The notes beneath the pieces are model-generated. The model had not been told where the DNA came from. It made no database searches and saw only the letters and a program-made list of their open reading frames with translations. The position numbers and the translations under genes are program-made. A DNA stretch of 54,759 nt from positions 1 through 54,759 of the forward strand of contig JAFGBH010000081.1 in the NCBI GenBank assembly GCA_016933215.1. Direction: 5' to 3'. Of the stretch, positions 36,826 through 53,116 are shown in pieces; the first letter of the stretch is position 1; every line of letters begins with the position of its first letter. Origin of the DNA: Deltaproteobacteria bacterium. Lineage in GTDB: Bacteria; Desulfobacterota; Syntrophia; Syntrophales; UBA2210.

Positions 36826-37503
36826 ATGAGCTTAGAGAGAAGTTTGCGCCAGTTTGAAGAAGACAGAGCCGAGGCTGTCAGAATAGCGGCACGCCTCCTT
36901 CTCGCCTCAGCGACTACCACGCCCCGTGTCGGCGGCGTGGGTGAATGCACCACCCATATTTTCGACGATGAGTGCGATATCGAGGATCTCTGTCAGCAGA
37001 TCGAAAAGATGTCCGAGGAAAACGATGCCTGGGGGTTTTTCAAGCGGGACGCCGTGATCCTGCGCGACGCCGATGCGGTCCTCATTGTAACGTCATTGAG
37101 AAGCCTCACCGATCCTTCCGACATCAACTGCAACATGTGCGGAAAGCTCACCTGCGAGTATCTGCGGGAAGAGGAAAAACTCCCGAAGGAGCCGGGAGTC
37201 GCCTTCACGGGTCCCCTGTGCTCTTTCAGGGCAAACAATATCGCCTATGCAATCGACGGCATCGTATCGATGGCGAGAAATCTCGGGATCGACTACGGCG
37301 TCTACTGGTCCCTCGGTGCGGCAGCCATGAGGATGGGACTTCTCCCCAAGGCTACCGGTTTTGCCCTCGGTGTGGGCATCTCCGTCACCGAGAAGAGTCC
37401 CTTCAGAGATGTACCCCTCAGATACGACGAGATAAACGAGAGAACGATGAATGACCGCATCATTCAGAGGCTCTGGCCGCAGTTCAGGTCAATATACAGT
37501 TAA
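36826..37503 (+). CDS. DUF2148 ferredoxin-domain protein, copy 1
   Basis: A 225 aa protein of the DUF2148 family. A Cys cluster, C102-x2-C105-x4-C110 with C132 further on, probably binds an iron-sulfur cluster. The C-terminal half (SMARNLGIDYGVYWSLGAAA) is conserved in family members, as is LGVGISVTEKSPF. The function is unknown; its partner gene follows 14 bp later. Strong TAAGGAGGA ribosome site. Electron transfer linked to the neighbouring acyl-CoA dehydrogenase is only a suggestion. Confidence 0.85.
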   Translation: MSLERSLRQFEEDRAEAVRIAARLLLASATTTPRVGGVGECTTHIFDDECDIEDLCQQIEKMSEENDAWGFFKRDAVILRDADAVLIVTSLRSLTDPSDINCNMCGKLTCEYLREEEKLPKEPGVAFTGPLCSFRANNIAYAIDGIVSMARNLGIDYGVYWSLGAAAMRMGLLPKATGFALGVGISVTEKSPFRDVPLRYDEINERTMNDRIIQRLWPQFRSIYS

Positions 37504-37517
37504 AAAAGGAGGTCGTG

Positions 37518-38177
37518 ATGGCTATTATTGAAATGGACAGTTTGATCAGAAACGGCCTGGATAAAGCTGTTGAGCTCATGGCGGTAGCGGCCCATAACAG
37601 CTTCAGGTTCGGCAAGAGAAACACCATGAAGATGATCGCCGTGGGAAACGAGGAGCTTGAACAGATTGCGGAATTCTGCTTTTCCCTCGGCGACATGTCT
37701 CCTCTGGCCGCGCGCGACGGCCGGTTTGTCATGGAACTGATTAAGGAACCCACCTCGCTTTTGCTTTTTGGCGATACGCGAAAATCACCCTACAATTTCA
37801 ACTGCGGTGCCTGCGGATACAGAACATGCGCGGAGATGAACAAGGCGGAAGAGGTGGAATCATTGACGGCGAACGGTCCCAGCTGCCAGTTCAAAAATAT
37901 AAACCTGAATATCGCTGCAAACGCGGCCGCCTCACTCGCCTGGCGCCTGGGTCTTCACTGCCGTGTCTTCAGCACCCTTGGATTTGCCGCCCGCGCCCTC
38001 GAAATCATAGAGGGTGTCGATCTCGCCGTCAGCGTATCGGTGAGCGTCGCAAAGATTGATCCCTATTTCGGCAGGCACAAATTCTGGACCCAGGAATACT
38101 GGGACGAGATATTCAAGAAGGAATTTCCTACCTTCGACAGGGGTTTTATCGGCGCCGTTGAAGACGAGGACTGGTAA
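37518..38177 (+). CDS. DUF2148 ferredoxin-domain protein, copy 2
   Basis: A 219 aa DUF2148 paralogue of the preceding gene. Its Cys pattern is C96-x2-C99-x4-C104 and C123 (NCGACGYRTCAEM), close to that of copy 1, and the tail (VAKIDPYFGRHKFWTQEYWDEIF) corresponds to the tail of copy 1. The two likely form a heterodimer. The start is the ATG at 37518, after AAAGGAGGT; a GTG lies one codon earlier. Function unknown. Confidence 0.85.
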   Translation: MAIIEMDSLIRNGLDKAVELMAVAAHNSFRFGKRNTMKMIAVGNEELEQIAEFCFSLGDMSPLAARDGRFVMELIKEPTSLLLFGDTRKSPYNFNCGACGYRTCAEMNKAEEVESLTANGPSCQFKNINLNIAANAAASLAWRLGLHCRVFSTLGFAARALEIIEGVDLAVSVSVSVAKIDPYFGRHKFWTQEYWDEIFKKEFPTFDRGFIGAVEDEDW

Positions 38178-38201: not shown

Positions 38202-39815
38202 ATGTCATCAAAGGCTCATCTTAACCAGGTCATCGCATCGCATATGGTTGAGATAAAGGCGGATCAGACGCCGGATAAGGAAATATACGTCTTTGAAAAG
38301 GGTGAGCATGGTGAGGACATCCTGACCTACAGGGACCTTTACGAGAATTCCAACAAGATCGCGCGGCTGATGCTTGATGCGGGAATTGAAAAGGGGGACA
38401 CCTACGGGGTATTCATGAGGAACCACCCCGAATTTGTCTATGCGCTTCTGGCGGGGCCGACAATCGGGGCGATGATGGTCCCCATCGATCCGAGATCGAG
38501 AGGGGACAGGCTCAGATTCCTCCTCAACAATTCGGGTGTCAAGGCCGTTTTTGTCTCCGATGAATGTCTGGAGCAGCTCGAAGAGGTGATCGCCGATACA
38601 CCAAAGGTGAAACTTGTTTCCGTTGCAAAGAGGCCCGAGCACGATCTTCCTCCCCCTAAAAACTATCCCCTTCTCAACGAAACGCTCGAGAAGGATTCCT
38701 GGGAGCATGTGGACCAGAAGATAATGGATGTACGGCATCCGATGCAGATTATCTATACCTCCGGTACAACAGGCGATCCGAAGGGGGTCAAGATCCGCAA
38801 CAACAGGACGGGGCTCTTCACCATTCTTACCCGGCTCGTGTGGAAATACAAACCGAACGATATCCTCTACAACGGTCTCTCCCTCACCCACGGAAACGCC
38901 CAGGCGGTGACGCTCTTTCCGGCGCTCTACATGGGAATCAAGGCGGTCTTCAGCCCTCGATTCACGAAAAGCAGGATATGGGACATCTGCAGAAAGTACG
39001 GCTGTACCTCCTTCTCGCTCCTCGGGGGAATGGCCTCGGGAATCTACAACGAACCGGAAAAGCCGGACGATGCGGACAATCCTGTCAAGGTTGTCATCAG
39101 TGCCGGCACACCGGCTCCGATCTGGGAATCCTTTGAGAAGAGGTTTAACGTTCAGATTCTCGAGTGGTACGGTGCCGTCGAAGGGGGGTTCGCCTATAAA
39201 CCCATCGGAAAGGGCCCCGTCGGCTCCTTCGGAAAGCCGGTGCCGGGCGTCATGGAATTCAAGGTGGTGGACGATGAGGATAACGCCGTTCCTCCGGGAG
39301 AACGGGGAGAGCTTATCTGCCGCATGATAAAAGGCGACACAAAGGTCGACTATCTCGGCCTTCCCGACGTATCGAAGGACAAGACACGGGGGGGATGGCT
39401 CCGAACGGGTGATATCGTCCACAGGAACGACGAAGGGTGGTATTTCTTCGACTACCGGAAGGGAACGGAACTGAGGCGGGCGGGAGACTTCATTCAGCCC
39501 GAGCATGTGGAAAAGGTCATCGGTGAACACCCCGATGTCAGCGAGGCATGCGTCTACGGAATACCGGCGGCATCGGGCGCTCCCGGCGAGAGCGATCTTG
39601 TGGCGGCCCTTTCACCTTTTGAAGGAAAGTCTATCGACCCCTCGCTCATCTACGAAAAATGCCGGCAGGATCTGGAGGCCAATTTCATCCCGTCATTTTT
39701 ACAGGTCGTCGATGAGATACCGAAGACGGTGTCTGAAAAGGCGCTGGATCGGAAATTAAAAGAGGCCTTCGAAAAAGGTGAAGGCACCATATACCGATAT
39801 GAGGACTACCGGTAG
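38202..39815 (+). CDS. AMP-dependent acyl-CoA ligase, copy 1
   Basis: A 537 aa acyl-CoA synthetase of the CaiC-like medium-size group. Motifs: YTSGTTGDPKGVKI, EWYGAVEGG (A5-type), GWLRTGDIV and the C-terminal EIPKTVSEKALDR that holds the catalytic Lys. It is a clear paralogue of the ligase three genes downstream (same motifs and nearly the same length). An AAAGGAGGTG ribosome site precedes the start. It probably activates a carboxylic acid for the acyl-CoA dehydrogenase encoded next to it. Confidence 0.92.
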   Translation: MSSKAHLNQVIASHMVEIKADQTPDKEIYVFEKGEHGEDILTYRDLYENSNKIARLMLDAGIEKGDTYGVFMRNHPEFVYALLAGPTIGAMMVPIDPRSRGDRLRFLLNNSGVKAVFVSDECLEQLEEVIADTPKVKLVSVAKRPEHDLPPPKNYPLLNETLEKDSWEHVDQKIMDVRHPMQIIYTSGTTGDPKGVKIRNNRTGLFTILTRLVWKYKPNDILYNGLSLTHGNAQAVTLFPALYMGIKAVFSPRFTKSRIWDICRKYGCTSFSLLGGMASGIYNEPEKPDDADNPVKVVISAGTPAPIWESFEKRFNVQILEWYGAVEGGFAYKPIGKGPVGSFGKPVPGVMEFKVVDDEDNAVPPGERGELICRMIKGDTKVDYLGLPDVSKDKTRGGWLRTGDIVHRNDEGWYFFDYRKGTELRRAGDFIQPEHVEKVIGEHPDVSEACVYGIPAASGAPGESDLVAALSPFEGKSIDPSLIYEKCRQDLEANFIPSFLQVVDEIPKTVSEKALDRKLKEAFEKGEGTIYRYEDYR

Positions 39816-39877: not shown

Positions 39878-41113
39878 ATGGCCTATACGGAACTCAATCT
39901 CGAACTCTCTGATGAGCATATGGCGTTGAAGGAGAATGTCCATAAATTCGCCATGGAGGTATTACGCCCCGCCTCACTCGAGCTGGATCAGATGTCACCC
40001 GAGGAGGTTATCGCAGAAGGTTCGATATACTGGGACTGCATGAAAAAGATGTACGAAAACGGCTATCACGCCGTTCTGATACCGGACGAGTACGGTGGTC
40101 TCGGCCTGGATCCCCTCGGTATTCACATCGTCTTCGAGGAGTTGTCCTATGGGAGCGTGGGATTTACCATCTCTCTCGGTGTCTCCTGTTTCTCCGCCTT
40201 CTATGCATCGCTCATTGCGGAGGAAGACCTGATAAACGACTTCATCCTCCCCTTCGTGAACTGCAGGGATGCGAGCGTCATGTCCTGCTGGGCTATTACC
40301 GAGCCTGAACACGGCTCCGATATCCTGATGCCCTTTACCCCCTTCTTCAACTCACCCGGGATCACGCAGCAGATACGGGCGGAAAAGAAGGGTAACAAGT
40401 GGATCATCAACGGACAGAAGGCGGCATGGGTTTCCAACGGTCCCATTGCAACACAGGCATCGCTCTTCGTGGGCATCGACAAATCTCAGGGAATGGCGGG
40501 CGGAGGGATCTGTCTCGTCGACCTGACACAGCCCGGCGTCTCGAGGGGAAAACCACTCGACAAGATGGGACAGCGGGAGCTGCCGCAGGGGGAAATCTTC
40601 TTCGACGATGCCGAGTGCATGGAAGAGCATATGATCATCGATCCCGACAGTTACGAGATGTTCACTGATATCACCCTCGCAACGGCAAATGCCTGCATGG
40701 GGGCATTTTTCACCGGCGTCTCCCAGGCCGCCTATGATCTCGCCATCGACTACTGCAGGGAGCGGGTCCAGGGGGGAAAGCTGCTCTGCGAGCACGCAAC
40801 GGTCCAGAGGATGCTCTTCGACATGTTCACAAAGATTGAGACATCGAGGGCCTATTCCCGCGCGGCGCTGCAGTACAATATGTCGATAAGTCCCCCGGCA
40901 ACGCAGTACTCGATTGCCGCGAAGGTCTACTGCACGCAGGCGGCCTTTGAGGTAACCAGCACGGCGCTTCAACTCTTCGGAGGAAATGGGCTGACAAAAG
41001 AGTATCCCATCGAGAAACTCTTCAGGGACGCCCGGGCGGGAATGATCGAGGACGGGTCGAACGAAAGCCTCGCCCTGGCGGCGGCCAACCTGCTCCTCAG
41101 ACGTGAAGAGTAG
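39878..41113 (+). CDS. Acyl-CoA dehydrogenase
   Basis: A 411 aa flavoprotein of the acyl-CoA dehydrogenase family (alpha-beta-alpha domains). FAD contact segment SCWAITEPEHGSD and the C-terminal QLFGGNGLTKEYPIEKLFRDA are conserved. At the place where most members carry the catalytic Glu (IYEGTS), this one reads IEDGSNE (Asp392 at the Glu position), so the base may be Asp or be elsewhere as in isovaleryl-type enzymes. It lies between two ligase paralogues. Electrons would normally go to ETF; none is in the window. Confidence 0.93.
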   Translation: MAYTELNLELSDEHMALKENVHKFAMEVLRPASLELDQMSPEEVIAEGSIYWDCMKKMYENGYHAVLIPDEYGGLGLDPLGIHIVFEELSYGSVGFTISLGVSCFSAFYASLIAEEDLINDFILPFVNCRDASVMSCWAITEPEHGSDILMPFTPFFNSPGITQQIRAEKKGNKWIINGQKAAWVSNGPIATQASLFVGIDKSQGMAGGGICLVDLTQPGVSRGKPLDKMGQRELPQGEIFFDDAECMEEHMIIDPDSYEMFTDITLATANACMGAFFTGVSQAAYDLAIDYCRERVQGGKLLCEHATVQRMLFDMFTKIETSRAYSRAALQYNMSISPPATQYSIAAKVYCTQAAFEVTSTALQLFGGNGLTKEYPIEKLFRDARAGMIEDGSNESLALAAANLLLRREE

Positions 41114-41191: not shown

Positions 41192-41257
41192 ATCGACCTC
41201 ATCACCACCATGGTCTTCGCAACACCGCAAGCGGATAAAGAGCGAAAGGACAGTGCC

Positions 41258-42874
41258 ATGACGAAAGATTTCATAGAGGGCCTCTTTTCCTACGAACTCG
41301 AGGCCCAGTTCGAGAAGATGCCGGATTTCGAGGTGATTACCTTCGATAACGGCGAGTTTGCCGACGAAGCGGTTACCTATGCCGATCTCTATCTGAAGGG
41401 GTGCAAGCTCGCACGGACACTGACGAATGCCGATATCGGGAAGGGAGACAGGTTCAGTCTCGTTATGAGAAATCACCCGGAATTTCTCTACGCCATGGTG
41501 GCCGCATCGCTCACCGGCGCCATCATCGTCTCCATCGACCCGCGCTCAAAGGGGGGCAAACTGAGCTACCAGATACGGGACTCAGGCTCAAAGGGGATAT
41601 TTCTCACCAATGAATTCACGCCCGATGTGGAGGCAGTCCTCAAGGAGACGCCCGACGTAAAAGTCCTCGGTATCTCCTATAAAGATGGTTTTGAAGAACC
41701 GATCAACGACCGCTATCCGAACCTCAACGAAATCATCGACGGGCCTCCCTCCCCTCCTCCCGATAACAGAAACAGGGACGCAAACTCACCATTTCAGATC
41801 ATTTACACATCGGGAACGACAGGGGATCCGAAGGGTGTGGTCATAAAGTCTCACCGGATGCCGATGTTCAAGCTCCTTGCCCAGCTCATCTGGCAGTATA
41901 CTGAAAATGATAAACTTTACACGGGTCTCTCCCTCACGCACGGAAACGCCCAGGCCGTGACCGTTGTCCCCTCGCTCATGCTGGGAATACCCTCGGTCAT
42001 CAGCCGGAAATTTACGAAGAGCAGAATCTGGGACATCTGCAGAAAACACGGTGCGACGAGCTTTTCCCTCCTCGGCGGTATGATGATGGGAATCTACAGC
42101 GAACCGGCCAGGGGAAACGACGGTGACAACCCGGTCCGGCTGGTTCTCAGCGCGGGAACCCCTGCCCCCATATGGAACGATTTCGAGCGAAGATTCAATG
42201 TCAAAATTCATGAATGGTACGGCGCCATCGAGGGTGGATTTGCCCATAACCCTCCTGGTACCGGTCCGATCGGTTCATTCGGCAAACCGATCGAGGGAAT
42301 AATGGAGATGCAGGTCGTCCGTGACGACGATTCCGAATGCGAACCCGGCGAGACAGGAGAGCTAATCTCCAGAACGATAGGCGCGAAGGAGGAGGTCCTC
42401 TATCACGGCAAAAAGGGCGCCTCCGAGGAGAAGACGCGGGGCGGCTGGCTGAGGACGGGAGATATGTGCCACAGGGATGAAGAGGGCTGGCTCTACTTCG
42501 ATTTCAGAAAGGGCGGCGGCCTCAGGCGACAGGGCGACTTTATCCAGCCCGAAACCATTGAAAAGGTGCTCGCAGAGCTTCCCGAGGTCTCCGATGTCTG
42601 TGCCTACGGTATCCCCGCGGAATCGGGCGCACCCGGCGAGAGCGACATCGTTGCCGCCATCGTCCCCGTCGCCGGCATGACGATCGTGCCGGAGACAATA
42701 TTCGAGGCCCTTTCGTCCGGCCTCGACAACAATTCCGTGCCCTCCTATCTCCAGGTGGTTGATGAGATTCCCAAGACCGCATCGGAAAAGAATCTCGACC
42801 GCATCCTGAGAGACGACTTCGCGAAGGAGGCGCCTAATATCCATGCCCTTTCCGACTACCGGCACCAGGCGTAA
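41258..42874 (+). CDS. AMP-dependent acyl-CoA ligase, copy 2
   Basis: A 538 aa paralogue of the ligase at 38202-39815. YTSGTTGDPKGVVI, EWYGAIEGG, GWLRTGDMC and EIPKTASEKNLDR are shared, and the two align almost without gaps. I start at 41258 (GAAAGGAC upstream), giving an N-terminus the same length as the paralogue; the frame opens at 41210. Two ligases flanking one dehydrogenase suggest two related acids are activated, or that one copy acts at a later step. Confidence 0.92.
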   Translation: MTKDFIEGLFSYELEAQFEKMPDFEVITFDNGEFADEAVTYADLYLKGCKLARTLTNADIGKGDRFSLVMRNHPEFLYAMVAASLTGAIIVSIDPRSKGGKLSYQIRDSGSKGIFLTNEFTPDVEAVLKETPDVKVLGISYKDGFEEPINDRYPNLNEIIDGPPSPPPDNRNRDANSPFQIIYTSGTTGDPKGVVIKSHRMPMFKLLAQLIWQYTENDKLYTGLSLTHGNAQAVTVVPSLMLGIPSVISRKFTKSRIWDICRKHGATSFSLLGGMMMGIYSEPARGNDGDNPVRLVLSAGTPAPIWNDFERRFNVKIHEWYGAIEGGFAHNPPGTGPIGSFGKPIEGIMEMQVVRDDDSECEPGETGELISRTIGAKEEVLYHGKKGASEEKTRGGWLRTGDMCHRDEEGWLYFDFRKGGGLRRQGDFIQPETIEKVLAELPEVSDVCAYGIPAESGAPGESDIVAAIVPVAGMTIVPETIFEALSSGLDNNSVPSYLQVVDEIPKTASEKNLDRILRDDFAKEAPNIHALSDYRHQA

Positions 42875-44002: not shown

Positions 44003-45013
44003 ATGGCAAAGATACTCGAGCGATATACCGGAGCGCATCTTCCGCTCACCCAATGGCCGCGCTTTGAATTCGAGATTGAAAAGTGCACCCACTGCAGGGC
44101 CTGCTACGAGTCCTGCCCCACCTCATGTATTCAATGGGACGAGGTCAACAAAATCCCCTATGCCACCGGATACGGGGACATAGAACTCGCCTGCCTCTCG
44201 TGCAACAATTGCGAGGCGGTCTGTCCCGCACAGTGCATTCGGACGAGGGGTGAATACCGCGTGCTGCACGGGAGGTACAAAACAGTCGAGGAACGCTTCG
44301 GCGAGATGTATCCTCCCTGTCCCTTCGGAGAGGGTGACCTGACACGGAACTTTGCCGATATCGAAGCGGAACTGACGGAGACGGAGAAAGTCATCTACCG
44401 GCGACGGAGCATCCGACTCTTCAAAAAGAAACCGGTTCCGAAGGAGCTGCTGCAGCGGATCATCGAGGCGGCCCGTTTCGCGCCCTCCGCCGGCAACAAC
44501 ACCCCATGGAAATTTATCGTCCTTACGAACAAGAAACTGATTGAAAAGATAGACAGACAAAGTACCAAACTTCTCGACGTGGTTAAGTGGATGTATGCAA
44601 GAAAAAGTCTCTGGAGGACGATCGCCGTCACCCTCTTCAGCTACCTTCAGGTGAACAACATGGATCAGCGGCCGATCGCGGCGATCGAAAAGGCCCATCA
44701 GATCGGGGGGTCAATCACCTGGGGTGCGCCGGTGGTCATATACGTCCTCGCCGACAGAAGGGCCATCGGAAGTGCCGATCTGGATACGGGACTCGCCGCC
44801 GAGAATCTGGTCCTTGCCGCCCATTCCCTGGGACTCGGGACGTGCTTCATCGGCCTTACCTCGAACGCACTGAAATACATGCCCTGGCTCAGAAAAGAAC
44901 TCGGTATCACCTATCCCTACAAACTGGTAACGAGTATCTGTGTGGGCTATCCCCGGGGGAAGCTCGACAACCCCGTCTGGCGGGGAAAGGTCCCGATAGA
45001 CTGGATCGAATAA
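44003..45013 (+). CDS. Ferredoxin-nitroreductase fusion protein
   Basis: A 336 aa protein with an N-terminal 2[4Fe-4S] ferredoxin module (C28, C31, C34, C38 and C64, C67, C70, C74, both CxxCxxCxxxCP) joined to a nitroreductase-type FMN domain (RRRSIRLFKKKPVPKELL, FAPSAGNNTPWKFIV, GLGTCFIGL). Such proteins reduce flavin-bound substrates with ferredoxin electrons. Here, with acyl-CoA and redox proteins, reduction of a C=C or C=O bond of a CoA ester is possible but not shown. Confidence 0.92.
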   Translation: MAKILERYTGAHLPLTQWPRFEFEIEKCTHCRACYESCPTSCIQWDEVNKIPYATGYGDIELACLSCNNCEAVCPAQCIRTRGEYRVLHGRYKTVEERFGEMYPPCPFGEGDLTRNFADIEAELTETEKVIYRRRSIRLFKKKPVPKELLQRIIEAARFAPSAGNNTPWKFIVLTNKKLIEKIDRQSTKLLDVVKWMYARKSLWRTIAVTLFSYLQVNNMDQRPIAAIEKAHQIGGSITWGAPVVIYVLADRRAIGSADLDTGLAAENLVLAAHSLGLGTCFIGLTSNALKYMPWLRKELGITYPYKLVTSICVGYPRGKLDNPVWRGKVPIDWIE

Positions 45014-45048
45014 AACAACTACGGTGAAACAAGGAGGGTTTGAAAAGA

Positions 45049-46287
45049 ATGGATGATGTCTATGTGATCGGTATCGGAATGATTCGCTTCAACAAATACC
45101 CACAGGCGACGGTCACGGGTATGGCGAAGGATGCGGTTGATCTCGTGCTGAAGGACGCTGGCCTGGAGAAAAATGACATTCAGGCGGCCTATGTTTCGAA
45201 CACCTTCTGGGGCATGTTTTCAAACCAGCACTCCATCAGGGGGGAGGTAATGCTCTGGCACATGGGTATCGACAAAATACCCATCGTCAATGTCGAGAAT
45301 GCCTGCGCCGGTGCTTCGACGGCCTTTCTTCTCGGCTACACGGCCATAAAGGCGGGGATGCACGATGTGGTCCTTGCCCTCGGTTCGGAAAAGATTACCC
45401 ATGAAAACAAGGCGCTTTCGCTGGGGGCCTATGCGAGCTGCATGGATGTGGAGCACTTCGATGAACACATCAAGATGTTTGAAGAGGTGAGTAAACAGAT
45501 AAAGGTCACTGTTCCCGAGGGACAGACACCGCCCGGTGAAGGACGGAGCATCTTTATGGACGCCTACGCCATGGGAACGAGGTGGCACATGGGTAAATAC
45601 GGCTCCACCCAGCGGCAACTGGCCGTCATCTGCGCCAAAAACCACTGGCACGGGTCACTCAATCCCCTCTCCCAGTATCAGCAGGACATGACCGTCGAAG
45701 AGGTGCTCGCCGACAGACCGGTGGCATGGCCCCTGACAAGGGCAATGTGCGCACCCGTGGGAGACGGAGCAGCGGCAGCGATTCTCTGTTCGGCCTCATA
45801 TCTTAAAAAACTAAACGATGCCAGGCCGGTGAAGATCAGGGCGGCAGTTCTGGGCTCCGGTTCGGACAGGGAACTCGATGGTCCCGATATCGGCGAGCGT
45901 CTCTCGAGGCAGGCTTACGAAATGGCGGGCCTGGGTCCCCAAGACATCGATCTTGCGGAGCTCCACGACGCAACGGCCTACGGCGAATTGCACCAGGCCG
46001 AGGTCATGGGATTCTGCCCCGTCGGTGAGGGTGGAATCTTCGCCGAAACGGGTGCCACAAAGCTTGGCGGGACGATGCCCATCAATACGAGCGGCGGTCT
46101 GGAATGCCGTGGTCATCCAATCGGCGCCTCGGGTCTTGCACAGATATACGAGATCGTGCACCAGCTCCGGGGAGAGGCGGGAAAACGTCAGGTTGAGGGT
46201 GCCAAGATAGGTCTCACCGAAAACGGCGGAGGGAACATCGGCGTCGAGGAGGCATCGATGGCAATCCACATCCTTGAGAAGGCCTGA
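45049..46287 (+). CDS. Thiolase (SCP-x type, catalytic Cys and His retained)
   Basis: A 412 aa thiolase. Unlike the two left-block relatives it keeps the nucleophile in NVENACAGAS (C86) and the His in RGHPIGASG (H356), so acyl-CoA C-C cleavage is likely. The C-terminal third Cys of classical thiolases is Asn in ENGGGNIG, as in SCP-x enzymes. The start is the ATG at 45049 (AAGGAGGG 11 bp upstream) rather than the TTG at 45040. A DUF35 partner is not encoded beside it. Confidence 0.9.
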   Translation: MDDVYVIGIGMIRFNKYPQATVTGMAKDAVDLVLKDAGLEKNDIQAAYVSNTFWGMFSNQHSIRGEVMLWHMGIDKIPIVNVENACAGASTAFLLGYTAIKAGMHDVVLALGSEKITHENKALSLGAYASCMDVEHFDEHIKMFEEVSKQIKVTVPEGQTPPGEGRSIFMDAYAMGTRWHMGKYGSTQRQLAVICAKNHWHGSLNPLSQYQQDMTVEEVLADRPVAWPLTRAMCAPVGDGAAAAILCSASYLKKLNDARPVKIRAAVLGSGSDRELDGPDIGERLSRQAYEMAGLGPQDIDLAELHDATAYGELHQAEVMGFCPVGEGGIFAETGATKLGGTMPINTSGGLECRGHPIGASGLAQIYEIVHQLRGEAGKRQVEGAKIGLTENGGGNIGVEEASMAIHILEKA

Positions 46288-46340: not shown

Positions 46341-47312
46341 ATGAAAAAGGATTCTCAAAGCCGGAAATTGAAGGGGTGGTTCTATTTCCTGAAGGACCTC
46401 AACTGAGCGCTCGCAACCCTGGAGGTCTTCCAGGACATGACGGGACGAAAAGACGACACCCTGTTAAAGGCCGCAACCGGTTTCGAGGGGGGCCTCGTGG
46501 CAAACGGTTCAACCTGCGGGGTAGTAACGGGCGGAGCACTTGGCCTTGCCCTTCTGCATGAAAAGGACCTTGCAAGAGGCGGACATGCCGCCGAGATTGC
46601 CGTCATCGCGCGAATCCGCGAGTACATCGAATGGTTCGAGAAGGAGTTTGCCACCACACAATGCAGTGAAAGAATGGGCGTCGATTTCTACAGACCGGGT
46701 GGACAGATACGCTACCTCCTTCCCGGTGACAAGGTGGGCCGCTGTTTTCTGCAAATCAGACGGGCGGCGGGGAAACTCGACTCCCTGTCGAGAAGAGCGC
46801 TCCCCGATGAGGAGAAGTTCCCCGACATCGAAACGGACGGAATTCCCCATTGTGCGACTCCCGTTCTCGAGGGCATAGGCAGAAAAACCGGTGTCAGCGA
46901 TCCCCTTCTCGAGCGTCTGTCCTTTATCTTTGACGGCGGGGTCGCCCTGACGGGGGGGATATGCGGTGCACTGGCCGGATCGATCATGGCGATCAACCTG
47001 ATTCTGGGCATGAACACTCGAAGGATGAACTACACCGATATAATACGAGATTTCCTTATCGGCCACATCAATCTCCTTCTCGAAACACCCCGTTCAATGC
47101 CCGAACCCTTCGGGGTGGGAAGAGACATCGTGCGGGGATTCAGGGAAAAGGCCGGGTCGATCAACTGCCTCGATATCACGAAACGGCGATTCGAAAACGG
47201 AAAGGACTTTATCGAATACAGAAATTCCTCCGATCGCTGCAGAGAATTGATCGAATTTTCCATAGAAGGGACATCGAAGGTCATTGAGGGCCTGATAGGA
47301 CGCACGGCATGA
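46341..47312 (+). CDS. C-GCAxxG-C-C family (seleno)protein with UGA-encoded selenocysteine
   Basis: A probable 323 aa selenoprotein made of two homologous C-GCAxxG-C-C redox domains. Domain 1 has Sec22, C59 (STCGVVTGG), C108 and C135. Domain 2 has C171, C208 (GICGALAG), C276 and C300. The in-frame TGA (46404-46406) stands where domain 2 has C171; both are exactly 37 residues ahead of the next conserved Cys. A SECIS-type hairpin follows. A normal gene call would start at the ATG at 46437 and lose the Sec and half of domain 1. The proposed ATG at 46341 is the only one after the last stop at 46305 and has only a weak ribosome site. The cellular role of the family is unclear; a thiol or electron-transfer redox role is inferred. 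Confidence 0.85.
46404..46434 (+). promoter_or_regulatory. UGA codon plus bacterial SECIS hairpin
   Basis: TGA (46404-46406), then 17 nt, then loop GGTCT (46424-46428) on a 6 bp perfect stem CCTGGA (46418-46423)/TCCAGG (46429-46434). The spacing and the GGTCT loop match the E. coli fdhF SECIS element that SelB recognises. selA, selB, selC and selD are not in this window. Confidence 0.8.
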
Positions 47313-47325
47313 TGGGAGCGTGACA

Positions 47326-48270
47326 GTGACAAACGTATTTATAACGGGTGTCTCGGGCTACTTCGGAGCGAAGCTGGTTTCTCTTTTTGACTCGAAGGAG
47401 GATATACAAACCATCGTCGGAGTTGATGTAAATCCTCCCGGTTTTTCATCGAAAAAGCTGCAATTCATACGGCACGATGTCAGGAACGACATGGAAACAC
47501 TCATAGGCCGCTGTCATATCGACTGGGCAATCCACACGGCCTTTATCCTTCCGCCCCTTCACGACAAAGCCCTCATGGAGGACATCAATATAAACGGGAC
47601 GAGAAATTTCCTGAAGGCCTGTGAAAAGGCGAAGGTGAAACAGATACTGCACTGCTCGTCCACAACCGCCTACGGCTTTCACCAAGACAACCCACCCCTT
47701 CTCACCGAGGAAAGTCCTCTCAGGGGAAATGACGACTTCACCTATTCGAAGAACAAGAAGGAATTAGAGTTGGTGGTGAGGGAATTCAGTGAGTTGCACC
47801 CGGAGATTGTGCTGACAATCGTGAGGCCCTGTTTTGTCGTCGGCCCCGGATTCGACAACCCCCTCTCACGATACCTGTTAAAGAAGGTAGTCCCCCTTCC
47901 CTTTCGTACTGCTCCCTTCCAGTTTATTCACGAGGACGATCTCGCGGAGATCATCTACCGACTCCTCAAGGAGAAGAAAAAGGGTGTCTTCAACCTTGCC
48001 GCCGACGGTACCATGAACTTTGACGAAATGGTCCATACTCTCGGCAACTGGCTCATCAGGCTGCCCGTAGCCGTCATGTCACCGATGAACAGCCTGATGT
48101 GGTTTCTCCGCCTGAGATGGATCACCGAATTTCCAAGCCCGGGGTTGAATCTGGCGCTCTATCCCTGGATTGCGAGTAATGAAAAGATAAAGAGGGAACT
48201 CAACTATCAATTCAAGTACACGACGCGGGAGGCATTCGAAGACTTCGCCCATCACGTCAGGACAACCTGA
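47326..48270 (+). CDS. NAD-dependent epimerase/dehydratase-type oxidoreductase
   Basis: A 314 aa extended-SDR protein. The Rossmann motif is ITGVSGYFGAK and the active-site YxxxK is YSKNK, with the upstream Ser in HCSSTTAYG. The extended-SDR family includes sugar epimerases and hydroxysteroid-type dehydrogenases; the operon context favours a hydroxyacyl or sterol-like substrate. The start is probably the GTG at 47326 (GGGAG upstream), with GTG 47320 as alternative. Confidence 0.85.
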   Translation: MTNVFITGVSGYFGAKLVSLFDSKEDIQTIVGVDVNPPGFSSKKLQFIRHDVRNDMETLIGRCHIDWAIHTAFILPPLHDKALMEDININGTRNFLKACEKAKVKQILHCSSTTAYGFHQDNPPLLTEESPLRGNDDFTYSKNKKELELVVREFSELHPEIVLTIVRPCFVVGPGFDNPLSRYLLKKVVPLPFRTAPFQFIHEDDLAEIIYRLLKEKKKGVFNLAADGTMNFDEMVHTLGNWLIRLPVAVMSPMNSLMWFLRLRWITEFPSPGLNLALYPWIASNEKIKRELNYQFKYTTREAFEDFAHHVRTT

Positions 48271-49236: not shown

Positions 49237-50904
49237 ATGTCGAAGATTTACGGCGGTCATCTGGTGGCCAAATATCTTAAGGATGTGGAAGGGATAGACA
49301 CCATTTTCTCTCTCGTTGGGGGTCATATTGACAAAATATATGACGGATGTTTTGAACAAAATCTCAAAATTATCGATGTACGGCACGAACAGGCGGCTGC
49401 AATGATGGCACAGGCATGGTCGGTCTGTACCGGCAAACCGGGTGTATGCCTCGTCACCGCGGGCCCCGGTTTTACCAATGTCCTCACCGGCGTTGTCAAT
49501 GCCTCTATGGAGAATGCACCCCTGGTGGTATTGTGCGGCACGGCACCGGTCAGGGACTGGATAAGGGGCGCCCTCCAGGACATGAAGCAGGCCGATATGA
49601 TCAAGTCAGTCGTAAAGTGGCACGAGATCTGTTACGACATCAAACGCATACCTGAGTATCTTTCAACGGCTTTCAGACAGGCAGTTTCAGGCCGTCCTGG
49701 TCCCGTATTCCTTGAACTGCCGCCTGACATACTGAATATAAAAGTCGACGAAGATACTTTGCCAGCGGTAAAAAAGGGAAGCACGGTGTACCGATTCCGG
49801 CCTGATCCTTCATCGATTCTCGAAGCCGTCGCTCTCATCAATCAGGCGCAACGACCCGTGATTCTCGGAGGTAACGGCGTCTGTTGGAGCGATTGTGACA
49901 GGGAGCTCGCTGAATTCGTTGACAAGACGGGGGCTTCCTTCTTTCTCATGAATGCCGGGAGGGGTGCCCTCCCCGACGATCATCCCCAGTCAATCTGGGA
50001 TGGCGGCATGTCCGCCGCCCTGACCGCTTTCGCCATGACCGATTGTGTGATTTCCCTCGGTATCAGGATGAACTGGCTTCAGATGTATGGCGAGACCTTT
50101 CCCCAGGCAAAAGTTATTCGGGTCGATGTGGAGGCGAGCGAAATCGACCGAAATCGAGCATCCGATGTGGGTCTCGTCGGTGATATCGGGCTTACACTCC
50201 GGGACATAAATCGCCTTATTGAAACAAAAGACCGCTCTGACTGGGTAAAGATGCTGAAGGACAGCTATCTTCCGCTCGTTGCAGATGAAATTGCGGCACG
50301 TGAGACGCCATCGGACCCGATACATCCCGCACGGCTTGTGGAACAGATACGAAAAGCCGTTGGTGATGACGCGATTTACGCAGTCGACGGCGGTGATGCC
50401 TCATACTTTGGCCTCGTGGGGCTGAGAGCTCAGGAAAAATCATTTGTAATTCCCGGCTCGGGCGGGCTTTTCGGCTGCCTGGGAACGGGGATACCCTTCG
50501 GTATCGGCGCAAAAGTGGCGCGGCCCGACAAAACCGTTGTTGTCATAACGGGTGATGGGTCCTTCGGACTCAACGCGATGGAATTCGATACAGCAGCACG
50601 TCATGCAATCCCATTTGTCTGTATTATCTGTAACGACAAGGCATGGGGCATGATCAAGCACGGCCAGGAAATGGTCTACGGAAGCGACCGGCTCATAGGT
50701 TCGGAGCTCACGTCCGGAAATTACGAAAAGATGGTCGAGGCTTTAGGCGGATACGGAGAGCTGGTTGTGAAAGATGAAGACATCATACCCGCCGTGAAAA
50801 GGGCCCTGGAATCGGGAAAACCGGCCTGTATCAATGTGCTGACAGACCCGACGGTCACCAGCCCGGCAACACTGCTTCTGGTTGACGGACTGAAGATGGA
50901 GTAA
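49237..50904 (+). CDS. Thiamine-diphosphate enzyme (acetolactate synthase/2-hydroxyacyl-CoA lyase-like)
   Basis: A 555 aa ThDP-dependent enzyme with the three-domain acetolactate-synthase layout. The catalytic Glu is E51 in VRHEQAAAM, and the Mg-ThDP motif is GDGSFGLN (439-446) with Asn466. Family members range from acetolactate synthase to oxalyl-CoA decarboxylase and 2-hydroxyacyl-CoA lyase; no regulatory subunit gene is nearby, and the setting of CoA ligases suggests a lyase acting on 2-hydroxyacyl-CoA. Strong AAAGGAGGGG ribosome site. The exact reaction is inferred. Confidence 0.88.
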   Translation: MSKIYGGHLVAKYLKDVEGIDTIFSLVGGHIDKIYDGCFEQNLKIIDVRHEQAAAMMAQAWSVCTGKPGVCLVTAGPGFTNVLTGVVNASMENAPLVVLCGTAPVRDWIRGALQDMKQADMIKSVVKWHEICYDIKRIPEYLSTAFRQAVSGRPGPVFLELPPDILNIKVDEDTLPAVKKGSTVYRFRPDPSSILEAVALINQAQRPVILGGNGVCWSDCDRELAEFVDKTGASFFLMNAGRGALPDDHPQSIWDGGMSAALTAFAMTDCVISLGIRMNWLQMYGETFPQAKVIRVDVEASEIDRNRASDVGLVGDIGLTLRDINRLIETKDRSDWVKMLKDSYLPLVADEIAARETPSDPIHPARLVEQIRKAVGDDAIYAVDGGDASYFGLVGLRAQEKSFVIPGSGGLFGCLGTGIPFGIGAKVARPDKTVVVITGDGSFGLNAMEFDTAARHAIPFVCIICNDKAWGMIKHGQEMVYGSDRLIGSELTSGNYEKMVEALGGYGELVVKDEDIIPAVKRALESGKPACINVLTDPTVTSPATLLLVDGLKME

Positions 50905-50909
50905 AAAAA

Positions 50910-52127
50910 ATGAAGGCACTTCAATTTTCCGTAACTATTCCTCAGTGGGTGGCACTGAAGGCCCTCGGGCTCGCGACCAAGAAGTTGTTCTACACGGGGC
51001 CGCTCGCCACGGTGAAGCTCTCGGAGATACCGGAGCCTGCCCTCCCCTCCGGGGAGTGGGTAAAGATAAAAACGCTCCTCTGCGGCTTCTGCGCCAGCGA
51101 TCTCAATCTGCTTTTATTAAGGGACTCGCCGAGTGCCAGTCCCTTCACCTCTTTTCCCTGTACCATAGGGCACGAAATCTGCGGTGAGATCGTTGAGACA
51201 GGTCCTGATGTGAAGGAATTAACGGTGGGTGATGTGGTCACCATCTTCCCCCAACTAAGCTGCGCGGCGCGGGGAATCGATCCACCCTGCCGTGCCTGCA
51301 GAACCGGGCGGGTGGGAAATTGTGAAAATTTTGCAGAGGGAGCTCTCCCTCCCGGGATGTTCAACGGTATCTGTCGGGATGTAGGGGGCGGCTTCGGAGA
51401 ATACTTCGTGGCTCACCAAAGCCAGGTATTCATAATTCCTGAAGAATTGTCACATGAGGAGGGAGCGCTCATTGAACCATTCTCCGTCGGCGTTCAGGCC
51501 GTTACCGACAATAGACCGCAAAGGGGAGATCAGGTACTTATTATCGGAGGCGGTGTAATCGGCACCATGATTGTCAAAACAATCAGGGCACTCGATATCG
51601 ACTGCCGGATAACCGTCTCCGAACCCTCGGCATTTCAGGCCGAGCTTATCAAAAAGGCGGGGGCCGACGAGGTCATTTCCGATGGAGACCTTTTCTCCCA
51701 TACGGTAGGAATAACGGGCGCAAAACGATACAAACCTCTGATAGGACCCGATATACTTATGGGAGGTTTCAACAGGATCTTCGATGTCGTGGGAAATTCG
51801 AAGACGCTGAATCAGGCATTACGATCTCTGGCCGTCGAAGGGGTTCTGAGCATCGTTGGGATCGGCCATGATGTAAAACTTGATCTTACCCCCCTGTGGC
51901 TTAAACTTCAGACCATACGGGGCGTTTTCGCATGCGGGTACACCGGTGCCTACGGAGAAGAAAAACATATTTTCCAGGTAGCGATAGATCTGGTAAAGGA
52001 GAAAAAAGTCGAGATAAAGGATATGGCCACCCATACCTTCCGCATTGAAGATTTCGATAGAATGATCGAGGTCAACCTCGACAAGGCACGAAACAGGGCC
52101 GTCAAGACCATGGTATCGTTCAGATAG
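50910..52127 (+). CDS. Zinc-dependent alcohol dehydrogenase (MDR family)
   Basis: A 405 aa medium-chain dehydrogenase. Catalytic zinc ligands fit C61 (GFCASD) and the GHE motif (87-89), structural zinc ligands C118, C127, C130 and C138, and the Rossmann motif is IIGGGVIGTM. It has an N-terminal extension of about 30 residues over typical MDR proteins. It starts 5 bp after the ThDP enzyme, so the two are co-translated and may act in sequence, for example on the aldehyde released by a lyase. Confidence 0.92.
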   Translation: MKALQFSVTIPQWVALKALGLATKKLFYTGPLATVKLSEIPEPALPSGEWVKIKTLLCGFCASDLNLLLLRDSPSASPFTSFPCTIGHEICGEIVETGPDVKELTVGDVVTIFPQLSCAARGIDPPCRACRTGRVGNCENFAEGALPPGMFNGICRDVGGGFGEYFVAHQSQVFIIPEELSHEEGALIEPFSVGVQAVTDNRPQRGDQVLIIGGGVIGTMIVKTIRALDIDCRITVSEPSAFQAELIKKAGADEVISDGDLFSHTVGITGAKRYKPLIGPDILMGGFNRIFDVVGNSKTLNQALRSLAVEGVLSIVGIGHDVKLDLTPLWLKLQTIRGVFACGYTGAYGEEKHIFQVAIDLVKEKKVEIKDMATHTFRIEDFDRMIEVNLDKARNRAVKTMVSFR

Positions 52128-52141
52128 AAAAAGGGGCAAGA

Positions 52142-53116
52142 ATGAAAATACTTGTAACAGGTGCAACGGGTTTCATAGGATTAAACCTCTGCAGAGAACT
52201 CTCAAAGAGAGACTTCGCGGTAACTGCCCTTGTCCTCCCCGGTGAGGATGTAAGCGAGATAGAGGATCATGTTGTGAGGATTCTCTACGGCGATATAACC
52301 AATCCTCCCAGTCTCGAAGGTATTTCGGAGGATATCGACGCCGTGTTCCACCTCGCCGCCAGGGTAACCGACTGGGGATCGCCAAAGGCATTCTATTCCA
52401 CCATTCTGGAAGGGACCCGGAACCTCCTCGAAGAATGCTCCGGAAAGGTGTCACGGTTTCTCTATGTGAGTTCGATGGCGGCCTGCGGCCTGGGAAGACA
52501 TCTCGAGGACCTGACGGAAAAAGATGAGGCCCTCAAGTCGGGTGTCCCTTACAACGATGCGAAGCTCGATGCGGAACGACTGGTGCAATCATACCGCGGC
52601 AAGGTAAAGACCAGCTATACGATAGTGAGACCGGCAAACGTGACAGGCCCCGGAAGTGTCTGGGTCAGGGACATTATCGAGCGATACCGGGGACTTTTCG
52701 TTCCCTTGATCGATAAGGGTAAATACAGTGCCAGCCTCATATATATCGACAACCTGGTGGACGGGATAATTCTGGCAGGAACCATGGATATAGCAAAGGG
52801 GAAGACCTATTTTCTGTTAGATGACTGGTCCGTCACTTGGAAACAATACGTGACGGACCTCGGCTCGATCATAGAGAGAAAGCCCTTCGGAAGTATCTCC
52901 TTCAAAACGGCATGGACTATTGGAGCAGTTCTTGAGAAAATCCTCACGCCTCTCCATATCAGACCTCCCGTCACACGGCTCGCAGCGGGAGTGATGGGAA
53001 GAAACAATGATGTGAATGCCTCGCTGGCACGGAAGGAGCTTGGATGGAATACCAAAGTCTCCTATGAAGATGCCATGGAAACAATTCGCCTCTGGGTATT
53101 GGAAAATATGGTCTGA
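52142..53116 (+). CDS. NAD-dependent epimerase/3-beta-HSD-like oxidoreductase
   Basis: A 324 aa extended SDR. ILVTGATGFIGLNLCREL is the Rossmann motif and PYNDAKLDAE contains YxxxK; the body, with AVFHLAARVTDWG, resembles the 3-beta-hydroxysteroid dehydrogenase-like group. It follows the alcohol dehydrogenase after 14 bp. A role on a hydroxylated acyl or alicyclic CoA ester is inferred from the operon. Confidence 0.85.
   Translation: MKILVTGATGFIGLNLCRELSKRDFAVTALVLPGEDVSEIEDHVVRILYGDITNPPSLEGISEDIDAVFHLAARVTDWGSPKAFYSTILEGTRNLLEECSGKVSRFLYVSSMAACGLGRHLEDLTEKDEALKSGVPYNDAKLDAERLVQSYRGKVKTSYTIVRPANVTGPGSVWVRDIIERYRGLFVPLIDKGKYSASLIYIDNLVDGIILAGTMDIAKGKTYFLLDDWSVTWKQYVTDLGSIIERKPFGSISFKTAWTIGAVLEKILTPLHIRPPVTRLAAGVMGRNNDVNASLARKELGWNTKVSYEDAMETIRLWVLENMV

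Follow-up and report, generated by a model that had tools for sequence, protein, structure and literature searches.

A predicted selenoprotein of the C_GCAxxG_C_C family with one selenocysteine domain and one cysteine domain in tandem

The window, that is, the whole stretch of 54,759 nucleotides analysed here, is a contig from a metagenome-assembled genome (MAG) of the Syntrophales (2.69 Mb in 102 contigs, 97.8% complete). Its right part carries a run of acyl-CoA-related genes, in the middle of which lies the gene that is the subject of this work. The features are as follows.

38202–39815, forward strand: first acyl-CoA synthetase (AMP-binding)
39878–41113, forward strand: acyl-CoA dehydrogenase
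41210–42874, forward strand: second acyl-CoA synthetase (AMP-binding)
44003–45013, forward strand: ferredoxin–nitroreductase fusion
45040–46287, forward strand: thiolase-like protein, directly upstream of the selenoprotein gene, which such a gene also adjoins in L059 and L100
46341–47312, forward strand: predicted selenoprotein gene encoding a 323-residue tandem C_GCAxxG_C_C protein, with UGA codon 22 as selenocysteine (Sec) and the final TGA as stop
46374–46790, forward strand: domain 1, the Sec domain (Sec22, Cys59, Cys108 and Cys135; PF09719 covers residues 21–118)
46404–46406, forward strand: UGA predicted to be read as Sec, residue 22
46418–46434, forward strand: upper stem–loop of a putative bacterial SECIS element (bSECIS), CCUGGA-GGUCU-UCCAGG, with a stem of 6 bp and its loop 17 nt past the UGA
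46437–47312, forward strand: 291-residue open reading frame (ORF) from mechanical annotation, a truncated product
46842–47285, forward strand: domain 2, the Cys domain (Cys171, Cys208, Cys276 and Cys300; TIGR01909 covers residues 171–315)
47320–48270, forward strand: NAD-dependent epimerase-like protein, whose gene also adjoins the selenoprotein gene in L058, L059 and L100
48307–49161, forward strand: short-chain dehydrogenase (SDR)
49237–50904, forward strand: ThDP-dependent enzyme resembling acetolactate synthase and 2-hydroxyacyl-CoA lyase, below curated cut-offs
50910–52127, forward strand: Zn-dependent alcohol dehydrogenase-like protein
52142–53116, forward strand: OleD-like 3-oxo reductase family protein, below cut-off

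When TGA is translated as U, the frame 46341–47309 yields 323 residues with a lone internal UGA, at codon 22; the terminal TGA (47310–47312) is the stop. The ATG at 46341 is the only start codon (ATG, GTG or TTG) that follows the previous in-frame stop and precedes the UGA. Standard ORF calling returns only 46437–47312, as would be expected if the UGA were a real stop, translation restarted at the ATG at 46437 and the upstream stretch lay outside the protein. A start at 46437, however, would cost domain 1 its first conserved Cys and its first helices, and the comparisons described below make this explanation very improbable.

Profile searches place the protein in a known family. Both PF09719 (118 bits against a cut-off of 27, E = 3.2e-34) and TIGR01909 (74.9 bits against 47.4), the curated name of which includes '(seleno)protein', match in two stretches. 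BLASTP aligned domain 1 with domain 2 without gaps (E = 1e-6), placing position 22 on Cys171. The spacing from Sec22 to Cys59 is the same as that from Cys171 to Cys208, 37 residues, which bears out an earlier note on this DNA that had proposed Cys171 as the counterpart of the UGA position, each 37 residues before the next Cys. The C-GC-C-C order is present in both domains, with the four Cys/Sec positions of each conserved in close relatives. The product would thus consist of two homologous helical domains in tandem, each of the form (U/C)-x36-C-G-...-C-...-C, with Sec in first place in domain 1 and Cys in domain 2. An AlphaFold2 model is confident and helical (mean pLDDT 86.9, pTM 0.89), and a Foldseek search of the model against the PDB returned no significant match that would support a fold assignment.

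A first set of relatives, obtained by searching 60 related genomes, has TGA at codon 22 in L027 and L028 (about 52% identical) and TGC in L029. A profile search of genome contigs using a four-sequence alignment recovered 19 loci; none was recovered with a single protein query. In the enlarged set, codon 22 is UGA in 19 of the 25 two-domain tree rows and Cys (TGC or TGT) in the other 6. The earlier note had called for homologues to be aligned at position 22 and had regarded a lack of conservation upstream of 46437 as fatal to its proposal; the alignment found U or Cys at that codon in a conserved context, typically FYLLKDLN-(U/C)-ALATLEVFQD. The remaining seven Cys positions are conserved in every full-length close relative. 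Because the Cys forms run continuously through codons 13–32 as an uninterrupted ORF, the stretch upstream of the UGA is coding, as the note had supposed from its appearance, and the position given there for the in-frame TGA holds. A conserved context and a Cys at codon 22 in continuous relatives are difficult to reconcile with a real stop.

The relatives also bear on whether the TGA arose by nonsense mutation or through faulty assembly, a concern with one MAG in 102 contigs. Yet the TGA recurs in separately assembled relatives, 19 tree rows in total, with the SECIS-like stem mostly kept, and we consider the probability of such an accident to be negligible. The tree requires four Sec/Cys label changes, at least two of which are forced by well-supported branches. 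The named public contigs that carry relatives are all MAGs, labelled Syntrophaceae, Smithella, Desulfobacterales, Thermodesulfobacteriota, Deltaproteobacteria and the like; one locus, L098, from a genome of the same order as the source (G363), matches the Smithella locus L079 within the aligned region, in keeping with an assignment of the source genome to the Syntrophales. The source genome also encodes a single-domain C_GCAxxG_C_C paralogue, L023 (G000:C43:15291-15677, minus strand), with a TGA at the same family position and a stem CCUGCA/UGCAGG. A single-domain UGA protein like it is found in the same-family genomes G012, G014, G017 and G018.

The UGA is followed by a hairpin. The earlier note had described a GGTCT loop on a six-base-pair stem 17 nt after the UGA, at 46418–46434, and these coordinates check. 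With a loop of 5 nt, a stem of 6 bp, GG at the start of the loop and a spacing of 17 nt, the hairpin agrees with every constraint of the bSECIS model as given in the text of a 2026 selenoproteome inventory (loop 3–9 nt, stem 4–16 bp, G in the first two loop positions, spacing 16–37 nt and minimum free energy at or below −7.5; PMC13188914). Its minimum free energy is −12.6 kcal/mol when counted from the UGA and −10.6 kcal/mol downstream of it. Nevertheless, the fold of the single sequence is unexceptional (z = −0.56) and useless as evidence. Of 40 further TGA read-throughs with a comparable layout in the window, about 6 have a stem of at least 6 bp, a frequency that favours the real-stop explanation, and Rfam at gathering thresholds gave no match within the window. 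In our reading of the sequences, the hairpin is weak evidence when taken singly and its comparison across relatives is decisive.

Across 24 UGA sequences, three single-domain ones included, the six-pair stem has 95.8% of its cells paired, against 52.1% in eight Cys sequences, which is no better than in shuffles. Seven cells in the UGA set have changed on both sides, 0 of 500 shuffles scored as high, and sliding the stem partner lowers pairing in this set to 23–51%. Because the conserved LEVFQ codons tend to pair on their own, synonymous codons were also redrawn for the same proteins (5,000 draws). All six pairs are present in 18 of 21 two-domain UGA forms, compared with 2.0 on average and at most 7 under the redraw, and a complete stem occurs in none of the eight Cys forms; as the stem sequences are mutually related, these stem statistics are not strict probabilities. 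Joint changes of the two strands, which alter the protein and keep the stem, are seen in L091 and L107, where the protein reads LRVTQ, and in L023, L046 and L049, which are paralogues with LQGLQ. Three UGA forms with incomplete stems (L090, L092 and L093) may use a different stem register. An RNA stem kept at synonymous sites in UGA forms only is not what a real stop followed by a restart would leave behind.

Position 27 is His or Gln in five of the six close Cys forms (L029, L079, L081, L097 and L099) and Leu in most UGA forms, as if this residue had been freed by loss of the SECIS element in the Cys forms. The RNA element would in this way shape the protein sequence: Leu27 and the paired codons are kept in most UGA forms, and the stem is lost in the Cys forms.

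Decoding of codon 22 as Sec would be carried out by SelB and tRNA-Sec, which would recognize the hairpin starting 11 nt past the UGA. The earlier note had named selA, selB, selC and selD as the genes to look for and their absence as an argument against a selenoprotein. Three of them are present in the source genome, with scores of 595 bits for selA, 348 for selB and 375 for selD. The fragmented assembly of 102 contigs yielded no selC over cut-off, and a direct DNA search gave only short fragments. The selD gene (L024:1501-2430; G000:C61:84488-85417) has an in-frame TGA of its own, in GAGUACKIGPGDL, and is thus predicted to encode a selenoprotein itself. In the relatives search, tRNA-Sec scored over cut-off in 25 of 31 genomes, including nearly all same-family ones (G003, for example), and in four of these cases ARAGORN confirmed the tRNA-Sec and its TCA anticodon. 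In G005 the selC match is broken off at a contig end, and therefore assembly gaps at selC do occur. Since most same-family genomes have selC and such gaps occur, we read the missing selC, a point against the Sec reading, as a probable assembly gap rather than as a refutation. A 26-nt segment in the source genome (L073; G000:C102:6468-6493, minus strand) matches the 3′ end of the tRNA-Sec of relatives at 92%, with no surrounding tRNA. The idea that it is a relic of integration at selC was dropped, as the neighbouring ORFs, inspected by eye, include no obvious integrase.

Among the relatives' genomes checked, 17 of 19 contain selA. The other two, G325 and G126 (loci L103 and L105, both UGA forms), gave no selA match and have selB over cut-off. 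In both, one end of the selenoprotein gene lies no more than about 210 bases from where its contig stops, and the result may be due to mis-binning, to a contig lost from the assembly or to a SelA that has diverged.

Recoding of UGA exists in other lineages, and codon 22 could in principle be read as an amino acid other than Sec, through a reassigned code or near-cognate read-through. However, TGA terminates genes in the window, this one included (47310–47312), the genome carries selA, selB and a Sec-type selD, and UGA at codon 22 alternates with Cys only. We regard this explanation as vanishingly unlikely.

The observation is secured because UGA and Cys occupy the same codon in relatives and the stem is conserved beyond the level forced by the protein. 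Recoding at codon 22 is thus a strongly supported prediction, and 46341–47312 almost certainly encodes a true bacterial selenoprotein that belongs to the C_GCAxxG_C_C family and has a two-domain anatomy. The division into one Sec domain and one Cys domain that the earlier note had put forward is correct, and it is conserved in relatives. A mechanically truncated gene is thereby corrected; the same error probably affects about 20 relatives. As the protein occurs naturally in both a Sec and a Cys form, the contribution of Sec can be tested directly.

The gene neighbourhood is shared with a few relatives. The order thiolase–selenoprotein–epimerase–SDR is kept in L059 and L100; L058 and L059 share the downstream gene run, and L100 shares the immediate neighbours. 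Elsewhere the neighbours vary and include a flavin reductase, an FAD oxidase, a Lar_N protein and a methyltransferase. A role in this operon as a general property was rejected, since most relatives, those beyond four genomes, have other neighbours. The term 'catabolic', which the earlier note applied to the operon, derives from neighbouring gene families only. Two adjacent DUF2148 (ferredoxin-domain) genes lie ahead of the acyl-CoA operon, at 36826–38177 of the window, and the pair is also found in L059.

A function in redox chemistry or electron transfer, possibly with Fe–S binding, is suggested by family and context, and is much less certain than the recoding. The protein would be a soluble redox or electron-transfer protein, the Sec/Cys sites of which either form a reactive selenenylsulfide or disulfide or ligate an Fe–S centre, and it may serve an anaerobic acyl-CoA operon comprising ligases, acyl-CoA dehydrogenase, thiolase, ThDP enzyme and dehydrogenases. 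Interchange of Sec and Cys at one position, as seen here, is typical of catalytic redox residues, and the Pfam family is named 'putative redox-active protein'. Both fit a thiol/selenol oxidoreductase operating by selenenylsulfide chemistry with no Fe–S centre, an alternative that leaves the Sec reading untouched and to which we give an even chance. Against it, the Sec lacks a CxxC-like vicinal pair (context LNUALATLE), the four separated conserved Cys/Sec residues per domain also fit a cluster or metal site, and there is weak similarity to split-Soret cytochrome c. The iron centre reported in that cytochrome may be a [2Fe-2S] centre.

In a profile search of PDB sequences, the best match, a weak one, was split-Soret cytochrome c (1h21, E = 0.0053); the match spans the GG..CGA motif, and the last Cys is aligned as well. 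Abreu et al., as cited in PMC5701242, reported a novel iron centre in this protein, and it is because of this profile likeness that an Fe–S centre is proposed for the four Cys/Sec residues of each domain. We rate such a centre and simple selenol/thiol chemistry as roughly equally probable. The NF047622 model also matches (E = 0.003), at 17 bits against a cut-off of 400. The known protein is a cytochrome, whereas the protein described here has no heme family match, and membership is not claimed. The fullest version of the proposal, an uncatalogued tandem Sec/Cys subfamily of anaerobic Desulfobacterota in which Sec22 ligates a metal or Fe–S centre and passes electrons for acyl-CoA catabolism, is speculative and in our estimate unlikely; if true, it would provide a natural Sec-ligated cluster.

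A possible parallel exists in Desulfococcus biacutus, in which acetone strongly induces the PF09719 protein DebiaDRAFT_04510, whose adjoining locus tag belongs to a thiolase. Its cluster B likewise includes a Zn-alcohol dehydrogenase, and co-induction extends to a ThDP enzyme (PMC4103992). The likeness, which is a lead only, is one of family and neighbours, and the cluster there differs in containing benzoyl-CoA reductase subunit genes.

Selenoproteins are already known in the C_GCAxxG_C_C family. PF09719 is on a 2022 selenoprotein list (PMC9312934) and the 2026 inventory (PMC13188914) has two entries for it, called forms 1 and 2; the tandem protein may equal one of these forms, the architectures of which are not given in the inventory text. 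Among NCBIfam models, none is dedicated to a Sec/Cys tandem, and only the general TIGR01909 scores over cut-off. Domain 1 covers most of the model of the DVU_1555 family C-GCAxxG-C-C protein (NF045669) at 66 bits, below its cut-off of 103 bits, but that model has a single domain. The HUGP/GUXX-star fusion selenoprotein (NF045501) has a related C_GCAxxG_C_C-type domain (52.6 bits against a cut-off of 325, residues 18–140), but its second half is by name another domain, whereas the present protein has a further C_GCAxxG_C_C domain in that place. Finally, the protein shares with the known TIGR01909/PF09719 family the domain itself and, as in the single-domain relatives found here, a UGA at the first family Cys; it differs in having two domains per chain, one with Sec and one with Cys, and a longer insert in domain 2.
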